Assembly (NCBI RefSeq): GCF_025685415.1
Contig: NZ_JAGSYB010000001.1
Span: 744,001-808,000, forward strand
DNA from: Terriglobus aquaticus
Lineage (GTDB): Bacteria > Acidobacteriota > Terriglobia > Terriglobales > Acidobacteriaceae
DNA length: 64,000 bases
Direction of reading: 5' to 3'
In this document: positions 53,397 through 61,255 of the stretch, one piece after another
How the letters are laid out: each line of letters starts with the position of its first letter
Position numbering within the stretch: the first letter of the stretch is position 1
Notes under the pieces: model-generated
What the model was told of the DNA's origin: nothing
The model's input: only the letters and a program-made list of their open reading frames with translations
Databases searched by the model: none
Made by a program: the position numbers and the translations under genes

Positions 53397-54485
53397 CTAG
53401 CTCGCGCCAACCAGCACAATCGGCATCGTGGGTGTGAGCGAGCCGCCAGCATTCTCTACCGTGATTGCAAAGCCCGTAGCAGCGACGTGCTGGAAATGGC
53501 TGTTGATTAGCGTTGCGTTGCCTGCGTTATCAGGCCTGAAGGTGCCAGCGGGGATGGGTGCGGAACCGTCCGCCGGCATCAGCCAGAGTTCATACACCTT
53601 GTTCGCCGGAAGGCTGCTCAGATCACTGCCCGTGAAAACAAGCGTACCCGTGCTGGCGAGGTAGGTGCCTCGCCCGGAGGGCCGCTTCTTCTCCTTCGGA
53701 ACGGTGAGGGTCACGTGCAGCGCAGTGGGATCCGCCAAAGCCGCAAGCACTTGTTGCGAGTCCGCCGCAGCTGCCGCAATCTGCTGTTCCTTAGTTAGAG
53801 CTTCGCCGAGCTGCTTCCGCTCGGCTTCCGTCTGATTTGCCGTGGCGGCCAGCGAGTCGGCTTTGGCTGCAGCACGCTGCGCCTGCAGGGCTGTGGCGTC
53901 GGCCTTTGCCGCGAGCGCGGCACTCTGTGCAGAGAGGGCAGCCGCCCGGCTTTGCGCCTGTGCAGCTTCCTGCTGCTTGGTCGTCAGTTGAACTCCCGCC
54001 TGTTGCAGGGAGTTGCGTAACCGATCCCGCTCCGCAGCCACGCTTGCAACCTGTGACTGTGCGTCGTGTAACTGTGCAACCTGGCTTTGCGCCTCATGAT
54101 TTCTGCGCAGCAGCAGGCCAACTCCGACCAGCAGAGCCGCTGCCACTGCCCACCCGGCCCACAGCAGCCCCAGGCTCCAGCTCCAGCGAGGCGAGCGTTC
54201 GACCACCTCGGCAACCCTGCGCGGTGCTGGCGCCGCGGCAACTGGTACGGTACGTTCCCGTTCCACGCTGCTCTGCAGGCGACTCAGCGCCGATGCAGGC
54301 ACCTCTTCCATAACGGTCGTTGCCGATGCGTATAGTCCGAGAACTGACTGAATCTCAGCCAGTCTGGCGGCCACCTCCGGATCGCTCTCCACCAGGCCCG
54401 CCACCTGCGTCATCTCTTCAGCAGACAGCGCCTGCATCGCGTACAGGATCAGGTCGTCTTCTGTCACAAACCCATGCATGCTCAT
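53397..54485 (-). CDS. RskA-type membrane anti-sigma factor with long coiled coil
   Basis: The 362-residue protein has a cytoplasmic N-terminal part (about 1-95), one membrane segment (about 103-126), a long alanine/glutamine/glutamate-rich coiled coil (about 130-235), and a C-terminal anti-sigma-K domain with LPANKVYELWLMPADGSAPIP. RskA proteins hold an ECF sigma factor inactive until a periplasmic signal triggers cleavage. It overlaps the sigma gene by ATGA. The coiled coil is unusually long and may place the sensor domain away from the membrane. Confidence 0.85.
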   Translation of the reverse strand: MSMHGFVTEDDLILYAMQALSAEEMTQVAGLVESDPEVAARLAEIQSVLGLYASATTVMEEVPASALSRLQSSVERERTVPVAAAPAPRRVAEVVERSPRWSWSLGLLWAGWAVAAALLVGVGLLLRRNHEAQSQVAQLHDAQSQVASVAAERDRLRNSLQQAGVQLTTKQQEAAQAQSRAAALSAQSAALAAKADATALQAQRAAAKADSLAATANQTEAERKQLGEALTKEQQIAAAAADSQQVLAALADPTALHVTLTVPKEKKRPSGRGTYLASTGTLVFTGSDLSSLPANKVYELWLMPADGSAPIPAGTFRPDNAGNATLINSHFQHVAATGFAITVENAGGSLTPTMPIVLVGAS

Positions 54486-55045
54486 GCTTTCAGGGTCCTT
54501 TCCAGAAGATTGACCGCCGCCCGAATACGTGTCTTGACCGTGCCCAGGGGTGTGGCCGTTTTGGCTGCGATCTCTGTATGCGTCAGTCCTTCGAAAAACG
54601 CCATTTCCAACGCCGTCTGTTGTTCAACAGGAAGCTGACTCGCCACCTCGCGCACCCGCGCCAACAGCAGGTTATTTTCGGACGACGCAGCAAGGTTCAC
54701 CGGCGACGCCAAGGGCAGATCGTCGACCGGTTGCGTCAGCTTCCGCCTGCGAATGCTGTCCACCGCACGGTTCCGCGTCATCACCGCCAGTAGCGGTTCC
54801 AGCGATTGCTGGTCCTCGCGCAACTCGAACGGCTTTCTCCAGACCTGCATGAAAATCTCCTGGAGAACGTCTTCTGCGTCCTCTCGATCGTTCAGGACTC
54901 TCATGGCGACTGAAAAGACGAGCTTCGAGTGCCTTTGGAAGAGGCGCGTCAGTGCCTGCTCATCGCCCTCTTTGATTCTGAGAAGCAGAGCAGGATCTGA
55001 CTCCTGGCCCTCTTCCAGTCTCGGTCGCGTTGAAGAGTCACTCAT
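54482..55045 (-). CDS. ECF RNA polymerase sigma factor (SigK-like)
   Basis: ATG 55045 gives 187 residues; a GTG at 55087 is possible. Region 2 has RLFQRHSKLVFSVAMRVLND and the DVLQEIFMQVWRKP core-binding helix; region 4 has THTEIAAKTATPLGTVKTRI, the -35 recognition helix. The pairing with an RskA-type protein identifies the SigK-like group. Its regulon could include the receptor genes nearby, but the receptor promoter here looks like sigma-70. Confidence 0.9.
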   Translation of the reverse strand: MSDSSTRPRLEEGQESDPALLLRIKEGDEQALTRLFQRHSKLVFSVAMRVLNDREDAEDVLQEIFMQVWRKPFELREDQQSLEPLLAVMTRNRAVDSIRRRKLTQPVDDLPLASPVNLAASSENNLLLARVREVASQLPVEQQTALEMAFFEGLTHTEIAAKTATPLGTVKTRIRAAVNLLERTLKA

Positions 55046-55187
55046 AGAACGTTCGGGGAAGGCGGATGGTTTGTGGCCTACAGCCACTTACGTGCATACG
55101 ATACACAGCGCTGGAAGCCTTGTGGAACGATTGCGCAACAAAATTCGTTGGCTCGTGACGTTTGCGGCACCCTTTGCCGCGGCGGCG

Positions 55188-55994
55188 TCACTGCGGTGTC
55201 CACTGCGGGTGAGTGGTGAACAGCCCATCCACAAAGCCAAGGTGATACATCAGGAACAGGCCGAAACAGAGGCTGATACCGCCTGAAATCCACCCCAGCG
55301 AGTCGGTCCAGCGATGAAATCGCGTCGAGCCGTACCTGAGGGGAATGGCAAAAAGTGTGGTCATCAGCACCATGCCCAGCATAGTCCCCACACCAAAGAT
55401 CACCAGGTATACGGCCGCCCAGACCGGATCCTGAATGGTCGCAAGCACCAGAAGTGCCACGGCAGCAGAGCCGGCTAAACCGTGTACCAGACCGATGAAC
55501 AAAGGCCGCAGTGTATGGAACACGCCCAGCTGGGTTAGCGAGCTGCGAAGCGGGCTGTATCCAGCTTCCTCGACTTCGGAAAGGGAAACGCCTGCTGGTT
55601 CAGGGGCGGTCGCGAACCGGCGCGAGAGGTACGGCAGCAAGCCGGTTAGGTTAAGAATGCCAAGGAGCACCAGCATGACGGCCACACTGAACTCCATCAG
55701 CAGACCTAGCCGAATCGGTATCTGCACGTGAAAGAGGATGATCAGGCATCCCACGAGGAAGACGGTGATGGTGTGACCCAGGCCCCAAAGGCATCCGATG
55801 AGAGCCGCGTGCGCGATGGATCGCTGCCTTGTGACAATGGTCGACAACGCAACCACGTGATCGGCGTCCGTGGAGTGACGCATTCCCAGCACCAGGCCAA
55901 GACCCACCAGGAACAGGACTCGGCCGGAGTGCGGTTGTTCCCCCGGTAGAAGGGCGCACAATGACACAGCCTTCGCGAGGAGAAAGGCGCTCAA
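55188..55994 (-). CDS. NicO-family nickel/cobalt permease
   Basis: The 268-residue membrane protein has about six to seven segments. The metal motif HX4DH is His40 to His46 (RHSTDADHV), and a second conserved block GLVHGLAGSAAV lies near 170. The start is TTG 55994, since an in-frame stop lies just before it. It would bring in nickel for the cofactor made by the larBCE genes; it is the last gene of their operon. Confidence 0.85.
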   Translation of the reverse strand: MSAFLLAKAVSLCALLPGEQPHSGRVLFLVGLGLVLGMRHSTDADHVVALSTIVTRQRSIAHAALIGCLWGLGHTITVFLVGCLIILFHVQIPIRLGLLMEFSVAVMLVLLGILNLTGLLPYLSRRFATAPEPAGVSLSEVEEAGYSPLRSSLTQLGVFHTLRPLFIGLVHGLAGSAAVALLVLATIQDPVWAAVYLVIFGVGTMLGMVLMTTLFAIPLRYGSTRFHRWTDSLGWISGGISLCFGLFLMYHLGFVDGLFTTHPQWTPQ

Positions 55995-56046
55995 CGCCGT
56001 TCCCGCTCACGCTCTACAGACCCGCACTGCCGGAAGCCTCGCATGG

Positions 56047-57114
56047 TTAGGAAGGCTTCGTCTCAGGATTTGCACTGCTGCCGCCCAGCCACTTCGGATT
56101 CTGGGCCGTGCCGTCGAAGATGTTCGAGGTCTTGAAAGGCTCAAACCGGCCGGTCAGCGCTACCTCCCGTGTACGCCCCAGCAGGTCGCTTCGTTGCGCC
56201 TCCGTCATCGGTTTGAAGTCGTGAGCTGCCGTAAGAGCCTGTTGCAGAATCTCCGGCTTGTCGATGCCGGTGATGACAACAGAAACGCCCGGGACGGAAA
56301 GGCCGTAATGCAACGCCTCTGCCGGCTGGAAGGTATTCGTCTTCAGCAGCCAGCCGTCCCCAAACGTCTTCATCGCCAGCACGCCTGTTCCGGCCTTGAC
56401 CGCCACCGGGATCACCAGGTTCGTGAACGACCGGAAGTGCGCGTCGAAGACGTTGACCGGCATCTGCACCGTATCGAACTTGAAGCCGTGCTGGGCCGCG
56501 ATCTCGAACATGCGCAGGTGGATCTGTGGGTCCTTGTGACCCGTAAAGCCGATGTAGCGAATCTTGCCGGCTGCCTTCGCAGCCATTGCGGCGTGAATCG
56601 CACCGTCGTCTGCAAAGATTCGATCCGGGTCTTCAAAGCGGAGGATCTCGTGAAACTGCACCAGGTCGATTACGTCGGTGTTGAGGCGGCCCAGTGACTG
56701 CTCCAACTGCTTGTCGTAGTCCTTCGCAGTGCGGGCGTCCAGCTTGGTCATCAGAAAGACCTTCTGCCGGTAGCCATCCTTCAGCGCCTGGCCCATGCGC
56801 ACTTCACTGATGCCGTCGTTGTAGTCCCAGCAGTTATCCATGAACGTGATACCCGCATCGATCGCGCTGCGGACCAGTCGTATCGCATCTGCCTGAGGGA
56901 TCTTCCCGTCTTTGTCCAGGTGATATCCGCCCATGCCGATGGCTGAGACGCGTTCACCCGTCGTGCCCAGCTCGCGGTAGAGCATGCCCGGCGCCTCGGG
57001 CCGCTGTACCGGCGCCCGGTCTGAGGTCTTGCCCGCCTGTGCGTCCGCAGAGGCTGTTGCGACGGAGGCAACCCCCGCGGCTGCCGCCGTCTTCAGGAAA
57101 TCTCTGCGCTCCAT
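56047..57114 (-). CDS. Tat-exported aldo/keto reductase
   Basis: The 355-residue product begins MERRDFLKTAAAAG, a twin-arginine signal ending near SADAQ. The aldo/keto reductase barrel keeps the tetrad: Asp93, Tyr98 (CWDYNDG), Lys124 (MTKLDAR) and His155 (VQFHEIL). Substrate is unknown. Export is notable because the family normally uses cytoplasmic NADPH; the cofactor may be taken out already bound. It lies between larB and the nickel permease, 52-58 bases from each. Confidence 0.85.
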   Translation of the reverse strand: MERRDFLKTAAAAGVASVATASADAQAGKTSDRAPVQRPEAPGMLYRELGTTGERVSAIGMGGYHLDKDGKIPQADAIRLVRSAIDAGITFMDNCWDYNDGISEVRMGQALKDGYRQKVFLMTKLDARTAKDYDKQLEQSLGRLNTDVIDLVQFHEILRFEDPDRIFADDGAIHAAMAAKAAGKIRYIGFTGHKDPQIHLRMFEIAAQHGFKFDTVQMPVNVFDAHFRSFTNLVIPVAVKAGTGVLAMKTFGDGWLLKTNTFQPAEALHYGLSVPGVSVVITGIDKPEILQQALTAAHDFKPMTEAQRSDLLGRTREVALTGRFEPFKTSNIFDGTAQNPKWLGGSSANPETKPS

Positions 57115-57172
57115 GGTCTTCTCCTGTGTGCCGTACTTCCAATGGGATGCGATTTCGTGACGACGTGCCAGC

Positions 57173-57955
57173 TTACCGCGCAGCCGCTTTTGCGCCGTTC
57201 CTGGGATCGCTGGCCCGGGCGATCAGAGTTGCCGAATACGCGGCTCCAAATCCGTTATCGATGTTCACCACGCTTACGTTAGGCGAACAGGAGTTCAGCA
57301 TCCCAAGCAAGGCGGCTGTGCCGGCGAACGAAGCTCCGTATCCCACCGAGGTCGGGACAGCGATGACGGGAACCGCCACCAGTCCGCCGACCACCGACGG
57401 AAGCGCGCCTTCCATGCCGGCGCACACGATCACGCAATGCGCTTCGAGGACCTGGTCGCGTACGGCCAGCAATCGATGCAGCCCCGCCACACCAACGTCG
57501 AAAAAGCGTGTGACCCGGGTTCCGAAGAACTCCGCGGTAAGGGCTGCCTCCTCCGCTACGGGCAGGTCGCTGGTGCCGGCGCACAGCACGGCGACGTGTC
57601 CCCAGGTGGCTGGCAGGTCAGTTTGCCGCAGTGAGATCAGGCGCGCCGTCTGGTGGTAGTGCGCTTGCGGTGTCAACGCCTGTACCGCGGCAGCGGTCTC
57701 CGGCGTGGCGCGGCTTGCCAGCACGTCAGACCCGGCCGCAGTCATGCGCGCAAACAAGTCCGCCACCTGCTCCGGAGTCTTGCCCGCCGCATAGATTACC
57801 TCTGGCAGGCCGGTGCGAAGCGCCCGGTGGTGGTCAATGCGCGCTTCTCCCGTGTCCTCAAATGGCAACTTCGCCAGTCGATCGGAAGCTTGCTCGGGCG
57901 AAAGCGAGCCGCGCTGAACGTCAGCCAACAACTCCAGAACCGCGGCGGGATTCAT
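57173..57955 (-). CDS. larB: Pyridinium-3,5-biscarboxylic acid mononucleotide synthase LarB
   Basis: LarB carboxylates and hydrolyses nicotinic acid adenine dinucleotide, the first step to the nickel-pincer nucleotide. ATG 57955 overlaps the larC stop as ATGA, giving 260 residues. The N-terminal part is LarB-specific (ARIDHHRALRTGLPEVIYA). The C-terminal part is PurE-like, with VAVLCAGTSDLPVAEEAAL, CAGMEGALPSVVGGL and a NIDNGFGAAYSA end. All expected blocks are present. Confidence 0.93.
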   Translation of the reverse strand: MNPAAVLELLADVQRGSLSPEQASDRLAKLPFEDTGEARIDHHRALRTGLPEVIYAAGKTPEQVADLFARMTAAGSDVLASRATPETAAAVQALTPQAHYHQTARLISLRQTDLPATWGHVAVLCAGTSDLPVAEEAALTAEFFGTRVTRFFDVGVAGLHRLLAVRDQVLEAHCVIVCAGMEGALPSVVGGLVAVPVIAVPTSVGYGASFAGTAALLGMLNSCSPNVSVVNIDNGFGAAYSATLIARASDPRNGAKAAAR

Positions 57956-59370
57956 GACTTCGGCCCCTTCGTGCTGTGTGCGTTCAGGTAGGCCGCCATG
58001 GCCGCAGCATGGACTTGCTTCAGCGGCACACCGTTCTGTTCCGCCAGCCGGCGGCAATCTTCAAACTCTGGATTCGCGTTCAAGGTCTCGCCCATCGATC
58101 TTCCGATCTTCACACGGACATTACCGAACTCGGTCTGAACGTCCACGTGCTCGCGGTCGAGGCACACGCGCCGATCCATGCGGGTGCGGACCCCAAGCGT
58201 CGTGGTCTCTCGCAGCAGCATCTGCTCCAGCCGGTGCGCGTCTTCTGACCGGGCCAGCACGGTCAGCAATGTTCCAGGCCGGCCCTTCTTCATGATGACC
58301 GGCGCCAACATCACATCCATGGCGCCTGCATCGAGCGCACGGTCTGCCACATACGCGAGAAGCTGCGGCGTTGCATCGTCGACCGCGGTTTCGATCACAG
58401 CAATGGACTCCTGTGCCGGTTCCTGAAACGCCGCACTCAGCGCGCTCTCGGCAAATCCATTCCGTTCGGAGCCCGCAGGGGCAGAGGCCTCTCCCACGCA
58501 AAGCCGGAGAACGTTAGCGAAGCCCGGGGGGTTGCGCGTACCTGCGCCGTAACCGATGCTCTGCACCTGCATGACAGGTTGAGGACCGTAGGTGGGCGAT
58601 AGCGCGCGCAGCAGTGCCGCGCCCGTTGGCGTGGTCAGCTCTTTTTGCAGATGGGCAGCATACGTCGGCACGCCACGCAGCAGATCTGCGGTCGCGGGTG
58701 CCGGGACAGGGAACACGCCGTGCGCGCAGCGAACGGTGCCGCTGCCGACATTCACGGGCGAGCAGTGCCAAGCATCCGCGCGCAGGTGAACCAGCCCTGC
58801 TGCCGAGGCCACGATATCGACGATGGCATCCACCGCGCCGACCTCGTGGAAGTGGATCTCGTCGACCGGAACGTTGTGGATCTTCGCCTCAGACGCGCCG
58901 AGCAGATCGAATGTGCGCATCGCGAGGTGCTTTACGTCGTCAGTGAGCCGCGACCTACCGATGATCTCGCGTATGTCCGTGAGGGACCGCGCGTGACCCT
59001 CGTCGAGGTCGGCACCTGCATCCATGGCGACCTCGTCCCACGTGTTCGCACCAGGGGTCGACGTGAACCCATGGTGACCTTCGCGATGCTGATGCTGAGT
59101 CTTCGCTTGCGGGGAGTAGGGCTCGCCTTTCCGCTGCTCTTCCGGCCGCGAGGGCGCCGGGACTTCTGCTGGCTGGCCTTGATCGAGCACCCGCACCTTC
59201 ACCGCCGTGATGCCACTGCGATCGACCGAGTCGAACTGCAGCGAGGCTCCCAGGTTCATTGCATCGGCAGCATCCTCCAGGACCGATCGCGGAACACCGG
59301 CATCGACCAGCGCTCCTAGCAGCATGTCCCCGGCGATCCCGGCGAAGCAATCAAGGTATGCGACGCGCAT
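57952..59370 (-). CDS. larC: Nickel insertion protein LarC (single fused chain)
   Basis: LarC uses CTP to insert nickel into the pincer nucleotide. The 472-residue product opens with YLDCFAGIAGDMLLGALVDAG, has IHFHEVGAVDAIVDIV in the core, and keeps the LarC2 part (MKKGRPGTLLTVLA, then GETLNANPEFEDCRRLA). LarC1 and LarC2 are one frame here, while Lactiplantibacillus splits them by a programmed frameshift. A short His-rich insert (HQHREGHHG near 93-100) may bind nickel. Confidence 0.94.
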   Translation of the reverse strand: MRVAYLDCFAGIAGDMLLGALVDAGVPRSVLEDAADAMNLGASLQFDSVDRSGITAVKVRVLDQGQPAEVPAPSRPEEQRKGEPYSPQAKTQHQHREGHHGFTSTPGANTWDEVAMDAGADLDEGHARSLTDIREIIGRSRLTDDVKHLAMRTFDLLGASEAKIHNVPVDEIHFHEVGAVDAIVDIVASAAGLVHLRADAWHCSPVNVGSGTVRCAHGVFPVPAPATADLLRGVPTYAAHLQKELTTPTGAALLRALSPTYGPQPVMQVQSIGYGAGTRNPPGFANVLRLCVGEASAPAGSERNGFAESALSAAFQEPAQESIAVIETAVDDATPQLLAYVADRALDAGAMDVMLAPVIMKKGRPGTLLTVLARSEDAHRLEQMLLRETTTLGVRTRMDRRVCLDREHVDVQTEFGNVRVKIGRSMGETLNANPEFEDCRRLAEQNGVPLKQVHAAAMAAYLNAHSTKGPKS

Positions 59371-59419
59371 CGGTGCTACCTTCTCTCCTCAAGCAATTTG
59401 TGTGAACGCACGCCGGTCT

Positions 59420-60277
59420 CTAACGCGCCGCAGCGATAGCTGAAGCGGGCAGCACCGCGTTCATCGATCCCGACCGGTATCCGTCAGCGTCCACCGTGAC
59501 GTAGGTGAACCCGAGCAGCTTGAGCGCGGCAGAAAACCGCTGCAACATCTCTGCGGAAAGCGCCCGCGGCAGATCGGCGCGGTCGATCTCGATGCGCGCC
59601 AGATCCCCATGATGCCGCACCCGTACCTGCGAGAACCCAAGCGCATGCAAAGCTGCCTCAGCCTCTTCCACTTGCCGCAAATTGTGTGGGGTCACAGGGC
59701 GGCCGTACTCGATGCGGCTGGCCAGGCAGGCGCTGGCTGGCTTGCTCCAAAGCGTCAGGCCGGCTTCTTGCGCCAGAGTCCGGATATCTGCCTTTGTCAG
59801 GTGTGCCTCGACGAGCGGAGCCACTACCCGGTGCTGTGCCGCGGCACGCTGTCCCGGCCGAAACTCGCCACGGTCGTCCAGGTTCATGCCAAACGCAAGA
59901 TGCGCCAGGCCGAGCCGGGCGCGCTCCGTCTCCATGGCTTGGAACAGCGTGTCCTTGCAATGAAAGCAGCGAGACGAGTCGTTGCGGGCGTACTCCGGCC
60001 GACTCACCTCGTCCGTCACGAGCACCCGCGTTGCAATCCCGTGCTCGGCCGTGAAGGTAAGGGCTTGCGCGAGTTCTGCACGGGGCAGAGAAGCCGAGTC
60101 CGCAATGGCCGCGACTGCGCCAGTGCCCAGCACCCGATGGGCCGCAAACGCCAGGAATGCCGAATCCGTCCCGCCGGAGTATGCGATGAGCACGGAACCG
60201 AGCGCCAGCAGTGACTCGTCCAGCAGCCGTGCTTTCTCGGCAAGCGTCATTGTCTCGGCATTCACGTGTTCCTTCAT
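59420..60277 (-). CDS. larE: Pincer nucleotide sulfur transferase LarE
   Basis: LarE converts the two carboxylates of the cofactor precursor to thiocarboxylates. ATG 60277 gives 285 residues; a TTG seven codons upstream also exists. The ATP-pyrophosphatase loop is SGGTDS (34-39). Three cysteines are present: Cys104 and Cys107 in SSRCFHCKD, and Cys184 in KPASACLASRIE, the place of the sulfur-giving cysteine. Homologues with three cysteines are reported to carry an iron-sulfur cluster instead of sacrificing the side chain; that is inference here. Confidence 0.93.
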   Translation of the reverse strand: MKEHVNAETMTLAEKARLLDESLLALGSVLIAYSGGTDSAFLAFAAHRVLGTGAVAAIADSASLPRAELAQALTFTAEHGIATRVLVTDEVSRPEYARNDSSRCFHCKDTLFQAMETERARLGLAHLAFGMNLDDRGEFRPGQRAAAQHRVVAPLVEAHLTKADIRTLAQEAGLTLWSKPASACLASRIEYGRPVTPHNLRQVEEAEAALHALGFSQVRVRHHGDLARIEIDRADLPRALSAEMLQRFSAALKLLGFTYVTVDADGYRSGSMNAVLPASAIAAAR

Positions 60278-60334
60278 CCTCTCCCCGTCTGCAGTCAATT
60301 GGATGCACGCGGCAGACCGGATCCCGGCGACGAC

Positions 60335-61255
60335 TCAAGCACGTACTTCCAATGCTTGGAGCACGCCAAAGCTTCGCGCCATCCGGGTCGCCTCTGTCAG
60401 CGCCGCAACCACCCGGGTTCCGTCGCTGTCCTGCTGCGCGTTCAGCGGTGCAAACAGGATCGTCTCTTCGCGCCGGGCAGAGCAATTGCATACGGCCAGA
60501 GCACGCATCAGCCAGATCGCGGCGGCGACACTTCCGCAATCCAAGCCGACCCAATCTTCATAGCGATCCACAACTTCGAAAGAAGTCTCCTGCGCAATCT
60601 CGTCCTCAATGCGTCTGCGGGTGGACTCTGAAATCGGAGTTACGTCCAAGCCAGGCTGAAGCAGCGGCATCTGCCGGTCCATGGCGGCCAGCAGCTCGGC
60701 GACCTGCGCATGCTGCGCCTCCGTCATGTGGTCCTGCCAGTAGTGACAGGTCTTCGCGACAGAGGTGATCACGTTCTTGATCTCCTTTTCGACGCGGAAG
60801 TGCGGGCCGGTGGGGAGGAATACGGACAAGCCCTGCACCACCGCCGTCACGTTCTCCATCACGATGGCTCGAGCCACCCACCCAGCCATCGCCGCGCTCG
60901 TACAGTACAGGCGCAGCCAGCCTGCGCGGCTCGCGGGCTCAGCGCACAAACGGGTGACCAGGCCAATGCCTCGGCCGATTTCTGCTGAAGCGGCAAGCAT
61001 GCTGGTTTGCTGCTCTGGCGTCAGGTTCGAACCGCGGAACGGTTCCAGCAGCTTGCCGCGATGCGGTGGTCCGCCGGCCATCGCCAGATGGCAAAAGGTC
61101 GCCCACATCTTGTCCCACTCCACCTTGCCGTCTGGCCCATATCGCAGGCCGGCAGAGCCCATCGAGCGGGGCTGAACCGCTGCGTCGAACACTTGGTACG
61201 TCTCTGGCAGCAGCACGCGCAACCGATGTTCGAACTCTTCCATGCTGTCGCTCAT
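60335..61255 (-). CDS. Protein of unknown function, first gene of the lar operon
   Basis: ATG 61255 with GAGG eight bases upstream gives 306 residues. No signal peptide or clear membrane segment is seen. A central helical part holds TFCHLAMAGGPPHRGKLLEP, then RLYCTSAAMAGWVARAI and VAKTCHYWQDHM; the C-terminal part has VGLDCGSVAAAIWLMRALAV, CNCSARREET, and ends in helices. The cysteines and histidines in TFCHLA, TCHYW and VCNCSA could bind metal, but this is not shown. It is not LarA, LarD or a known Lar transporter. Its distance of 57 bases to larE and shared direction indicate one transcript. Confidence 0.75.
   Translation of the reverse strand: MSDSMEEFEHRLRVLLPETYQVFDAAVQPRSMGSAGLRYGPDGKVEWDKMWATFCHLAMAGGPPHRGKLLEPFRGSNLTPEQQTSMLAASAEIGRGIGLVTRLCAEPASRAGWLRLYCTSAAMAGWVARAIVMENVTAVVQGLSVFLPTGPHFRVEKEIKNVITSVAKTCHYWQDHMTEAQHAQVAELLAAMDRQMPLLQPGLDVTPISESTRRRIEDEIAQETSFEVVDRYEDWVGLDCGSVAAAIWLMRALAVCNCSARREETILFAPLNAQQDSDGTRVVAALTEATRMARSFGVLQALEVRA

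Follow-up and report, generated by a model that had tools for sequence, protein, structure and literature searches.

The gene run at positions 55188 to 61255 of a 64,000-nucleotide stretch of the Terriglobus aquaticus genome (hereafter the window) holds larE, larC and larB, the genes of nickel-pincer nucleotide (NPN) synthesis, together with genes for an unrecognised protein (UNK), an aldo/keto reductase (AKR) with a twin-arginine signal and a NicO-like membrane protein. The run is mostly ordinary and most likely serves a sugar-acid epimerase encoded elsewhere in the genome. Judged from sequence comparisons, it very probably supplies NPN to a LarA homologue (LarAH) of group 18, here LarAH18. 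This removes the false lead of a lar operon lacking a client and would connect the use of hexuronates in Acidobacteriaceae with the nickel-pincer cofactor. Surprisingly, close relatives have an epimerase of this kind and cofactor-making genes, yet apparently no gene for nickel insertion.

A LarA homologue outside the window

A sequence-only reading of the window had noted the lack of larA and proposed that either the client enzyme lies elsewhere, or UNK or the AKR is linked to a novel role of the cofactor. The whole genome (4.16 Mb, 2 contigs, 99.99% complete, window included) was searched for Lar_N. A single match was found, at 423 kb of contig 1, and the window begins at 744 kb. The absence of larA from the window was thus borne out, and a lar operon without a client in the genome was rejected. 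The match is a full-length LarAH18, as expected if the client lies elsewhere, and its gene (L002:8108-9388) is about 375 kb from the lar run. The protein scored 660 bits against NF052594 ('nickel-dependent putative hexonate epimerase', cut-off 500). Its one PDB match was 4nar ('putative uronate isomerase', E 3e-33), which we take, as a guess only, to be GntE2. The larAH18 gene sits between uxaC and gntK, followed by genes for a short-chain dehydrogenase/reductase (SDR), a cupin, KduI and a PfkB-type kinase. UxaC, gluconokinase and KduI scored 594, 166 and 388 bits (cut-offs 387, 113.75 and 250), and an open reading frame (ORF) past the PfkB-type kinase was read by eye as aldolase-like. A larA gene in the usual lactate racemase context had been named as evidence against a new cofactor use; a homologue exists, but its context is that of hexonate, not lactate.

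LarAH18 has equivalents of LarA D72, R75, H108, H174, K184 and H200, and an equivalent of K298 was assigned without certainty. The pincer-binding and catalytic roles of these LarA residues are as given in PMC7583248. The same paper describes LarAH groups 19 and 20 as epimerising D-mannonate/D-gluconate and hypothesises a hexonate substrate for group 18.

It is proposed that LarB and LarE would build the bis-thiocarboxylate pincer P2TMN and that LarC would put nickel into it, the nickel being probably imported by the NicO-like protein. The main user of NPN would be the group 18 hexonate 2-epimerase, presumably loaded by the window's run. LarAH18 would most likely interconvert D-mannonate and D-gluconate, both substrate and direction being predicted, and hexuronate carbon would then exit through gluconokinase. 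The exported AKR is probably a partner in the same sugar-acid pathway, and UNK may be an accessory gene, dispensable for NPN synthesis.

Gene neighbourhoods in other genera point the same way. We compared 40 loci around LarC genes, a non-random choice from the matches listed (20 from the window's family and 20 from other families). larB lay near larC in six of them, all six in the window's family, and in four of these six other-genus loci (L141, L142, L143 and L145) the same 20-kb stretch also contained larAH18 and uxaC, a further basis for placing the client elsewhere in the window genome. In four genomes of genus g36, one 20-kb stretch takes in larE, larC, larB, the AKR gene, larAH18 (78% identical) and uxaC, and the window's run therefore corresponds to half of a locus that g36 has in full. 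The other 34 loci (L127-L140 and L147-L166) showed no larB in the stretch examined; three had larE 6-8 kb away, and some of these genomes were without any Lar_N match.

Several points weigh against NPN supply to LarAH18. The lar run and larAH18 are far apart in this genome, which leaves their joint regulation hypothetical. The SDR expected to make mannonate matches several sugar-dehydrogenase models and passes no specific equivalog. Both the substrate and the activity of group 18 are hypothesised in PMC7583248. Most of the genus has a LarAH18 of another type without LarC, and LarAH18 is thus not always accompanied by LarC.

Relatives in which LarC was not found

LarE passed its cut-off in all 19 genomes of the window's genus (g1). 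LarC was found in two of them, the window genome and G018, and the NicO-like protein in the same two, as was UNK. LarAH18 was matched in 16 of the 16 genus genomes tested, 15 times over the cut-off, with that of G012 in three pieces. LarC was not found in the remaining 17 genus genomes, nor in three genomes of genus g38. When the search was repeated with E values of up to 10, no score exceeded 12.1 bits in the three g38 genomes and in 15 of the 17 genus genomes, against more than 460 bits in both LarC-bearing genomes, which served as controls; G009 (70% complete) and G016 (80%) were left out of it. Incomplete assemblies are an unlikely cause of these negatives: G001, G002, G006 and G270 each consist of a single contig at 99% completeness, and even the permissive search gave no higher scores. 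Across the whole class, 17 of 222 genomes with Lar_N had no LarC match and 61 of 266 genomes with LarC had no Lar_N match.

Two types of LarAH18 could be told apart. Type A (631-660 bits) occurred in all six LarC-bearing genomes tested from g1 and g38, and type B (570-600 bits; 45-47% identical to the window's LarAH18 in seven genus loci) in all 16 LarC-less genomes of these genera with a full-length match. Three LarC-bearing g36 genomes hold both. The exception to the pattern was G237, a metagenome-assembled genome of 610 contigs from another family, with type A and no LarC match. The two types stood apart on long branches of a 33-row tree, with support values (92/92 and 94/94) that stayed below the starred level. 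The pincer-binding residues are retained in type B.

The cofactor-making genes persist in genomes with type B. larB lay near larE in all ten LarC-less genomes inspected (7 of the 17 in g1 and 3 in g38). Loci with larE, larB and the second LarAH18 type, from genomes without larC, are L117, L118, L119, L121, L126, L123 and L124 in the genus and L198-L200 in g38. In G005 and G006, larE-larB lies inside a uxaC cluster, apart from the type B gene (larAH18B). Eight aligned LarE rows from LarC-less genomes keep the SGGxDS and CXXC-C motifs. Ratios of nonsynonymous to synonymous substitution (dN/dS) for LarE, LarB and LarAH18 from four genomes were 0.05-0.29 in 17 of 18 comparisons, one being saturated; the LarB segment of G004 reached back beyond its start and took in an upstream stop. 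In LarC-less lineages, purifying selection still acts on LarE, on the LarA-type epimerase and, where it was inspected, on LarB. larAH18B, larE and larB recurred in all eight LarC-less runs compared, and no other gene that might substitute for LarC beside type B recurred in all eight. Three further clusters present in all eight runs overlap these genes in other frames, as judged by position.

A NicO-family match over the cut-off was found in none of the ten LarC-less genus genomes tested; the window genome and G018 were also without one, their protein scoring below it. In g36 and g38, such matches occurred in all six LarC-bearing genomes and in two of three LarC-less ones; G268 and G270 have no LarC, yet they have NicO-family matches over the cut-off. 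Outside the genus, nickel permeases thus fail to set the groups apart, and nickel uptake marks the split only weakly.

We regard as evenly balanced the proposal that the type B module of the sister lineages runs pincer-type hexonate epimerisation without LarC. The cofactor would then perhaps be metal-free P2TMN, a form with another metal, or NPN loaded with nickel by a LarC-independent route. A nickel-free form has been seen on LarA in E. coli (PMC11796402). The plainest alternative is an unrecognised insertase elsewhere in the LarC-less genomes. If the type B module does work without LarC, the larE-larC-larB-NicO run of the window would be the nickel-using form of a pathway for which its relatives do without the known nickel insertase. 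A literature search, covering titles and the openings of abstracts, found no description of a missing LarC. A natural experiment is offered by the lineages in which LarC was not found but which have LarE, a LarA-type epimerase and, where it was inspected, LarB. If their epimerases are functional, LarC, or even nickel, can sometimes be dispensed with, and this would bear on how the pincer cofactor carries hydride.

UNK and the exported reductase

UNK is a new family, found in Acidobacteriota and internally duplicated. The sequence-only reading had called the first gene of the run an unrecognised protein of 306 residues, and this held: neither it nor any of the 23 members of the family matched Pfam or NCBIfam over a cut-off. 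Seven of the 23 touch PF16012 (DUF4780; best E 9e-5), and the best PDB sequence match of UNK is LpoA (E 0.008); both were judged unconvincing. Two copies of a segment some 57 residues long make up the repeat (score 80.7 at an hhalign probability of 98, compared with at most 18.4 in 30 column shuffles). The 23-row alignment omits the partial copies L028 and L030 and also L024, L031 and L032, in which UNK is split by frame breaks that are either assembly errors or marks of pseudogenes.

A peptide-pattern scan of genome contigs gave 27 UNK loci. It is rather likely that UNK is a solitary gene, without a functional tie to the lar genes, that heads the run by chance in two sister genomes. Its presence is scattered (33 of the 299 genomes of the class and two of the 19 of the genus), and no gene family recurred beside it in two neighbourhood clusterings with crude gene calls. 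Against this, UNK has kept its place in G018 at 55-56% identity, and larC-type genes adjoin it in two further lineages. In L020 an ORF of LarC1 length lies on the same strand about 0.75 kb upstream of UNK, and in L025 the larC-type gene is divergent and about 50 bp away. Over 26 loci, with that of G018 (L008) excluded, about 0.02 larC genes were expected within 2 kb of UNK; the two seen exceed chance in a test that was post hoc.

The same adjacency would fit a role of UNK in assisting LarC or the handling of nickel in some lineages of Acidobacteriota, a reading that we consider unlikely. UNK heads the run in both genus genomes with LarC, and G018 bears traces of an apparent UNK-larE duplication. 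However, 24 of the 27 loci had no lar gene in the flanks examined, some of which were short. UNK presence was also independent of LarC presence (p 0.55 in 299 class genomes), and UNK occurs in LarC-less G268 and G314. It did co-occur with Lar_N in the same genomes (p 0.005, kinship ignored). Only the sister locus L008 has larE, larC, larB, the AKR gene and the NicO-like gene all beside UNK, and UNK was rejected as a regular lar gene. The suspected link between UNK and larBCE is thus not general, and there was little gain for the idea that UNK is linked to a novel role of the cofactor.

Several observations were made around UNK. In G018 (L006:7458-8453), pieces resembling a decayed larE and the C-terminus of UNK were seen by eye between UNK and larE, as if a UNK-larE pair had once been duplicated and had then decayed. 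A small ORF with a signal-like start (L020:9205-9717) lies between the LarC1-length ORF and UNK; by eye we take it to resemble FmdE-type proteins. The record of L009 is titled as a Bordetella parapertussis metagenome-assembled genome and is apparently from an acidobacterium, as the same 74,711-base contig is in G054, of the window's class.

The reductase was correctly described as an AKR with a Tat signal: it scored 111 bits against PF00248 (Aldo_ket_red, cut-off 24), 23.2 against PF10518 (TAT_signal, 22.7) and 23.1 against TIGR01409 (16.7). The twin-arginine motif is in all eight aligned copies, for which start codons were chosen so as to include it. The AKR gene is present in five of the six other-genus larB-larC loci (L141-L145, not L146), and gene order varies, L143 and L145 having it between larC and larB. 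It is a regular companion of the lar genes, yet ordinary-looking: its domain is normal, its PDB relatives are labelled L-galactose dehydrogenase and oxidoreductase, and AKR-type enzymes are not known to need NPN. It is very improbable that UNK or the AKR is a further, or even the main, user of the cofactor, a role suspected of non-LarA proteins in LarA-less NPN makers: a LarA-type user is present in the genome, the reductase looks ordinary, and UNK occurs in two LarC-less genomes. In favour of such a use are the company that the AKR keeps and PMC11796402, which reports larB, larE and larC without larA in about 15% of surveyed genomes and suspects non-LarA users of NPN, for example in cyanobacteria. 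NPN supply to LarAH18 remains the reading that we prefer.

Layout of the run and comparison with known systems

Table 1. Genes of the run, from first to last, with positions in the window and matches to protein family models.
Feature	Position	Strand	Matches
UNK, first gene of the run, 306 residues, internal duplication	60335..61255	-	none over Pfam or NCBIfam cut-offs
larE, sulfur insertase of NPN synthesis	59420..60298	-	TIGR00268, 299 bits (cut-off 150)
larC, nickel insertase, LarC1 and LarC2 regions in a single ORF	57952..59370	-	TIGR00299, NF052512, PF01969
larB, carboxylase/hydrolase of NPN synthesis	57173..57955	-	NF033503, 292 bits (cut-off 175)
Aldo/keto reductase (AKR) with twin-arginine signal	56047..57114	-	PF00248, PF10518, TIGR01409
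NicO-like membrane protein, probable nickel importer	55188..55994	-	PF03824, 14.8 bits (below cut-off 27.7)

The claim that larE, larC and larB form one minus-strand run was confirmed, and the three homologues all exceeded curated NCBIfam cut-offs (Table 1). LarC scored 210 bits against TIGR00299 (cut-off 90), 146 against NF052512 (50) and 458 against the Pfam family Ni_insertion, PF01969 (22.1). Intergenic distances are 36, 49, 58 and 52 bp. The only ATG/GTG start of larB in the scanned stretch is the ATG at 57955, which overlaps the stop of larC (57952). The start of LarE is probably near 60250, according to the alignment with relatives. The last gene had been read as a NicO nickel permease. 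A NicO-like resemblance stood, and the family cut-offs were not reached (17.3 bits against PF03824 in the genome search; 17.1 against 333 for TIGR00802). The membrane protein is likely to be a nickel permease. A scan for promoters and terminators gave no excess over shuffled sequences. At 53397-55087, an extracytoplasmic function (ECF) sigma factor gene lies 100 bp past the permease gene and is followed by an RskA-type anti-sigma gene and by a gene for a large TonB-receptor-like outer-membrane protein.

The same three genes as in Lactiplantibacillus plantarum and Thermotoga maritima were thus recognised over curated equivalog models. In comparison with those lar genes, the window's run adds UNK, the Tat-signal AKR and the NicO-like protein and is without larA. 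Its LarE has both SGGxDS and CXXC-C, the latter being the motif of the iron-sulfur type of LarE (PMC9283937). The AKR shares its domain with family PF00248 and differs by its twin-arginine signal and its larE-larC-larB company. In the LarA superfamily, the window genome's homologue belongs with group 18 (NF052594), over the cut-off and with the examined pincer and catalytic residues kept; larB, larC and larE are some 375 kb from its gene, and the activity of the group is hypothesised in PMC7583248. LarAH18 also has the same residue set as GntE2, the D-gluconate 2-epimerase of Thermotoga, which belongs to a different LarAH group.

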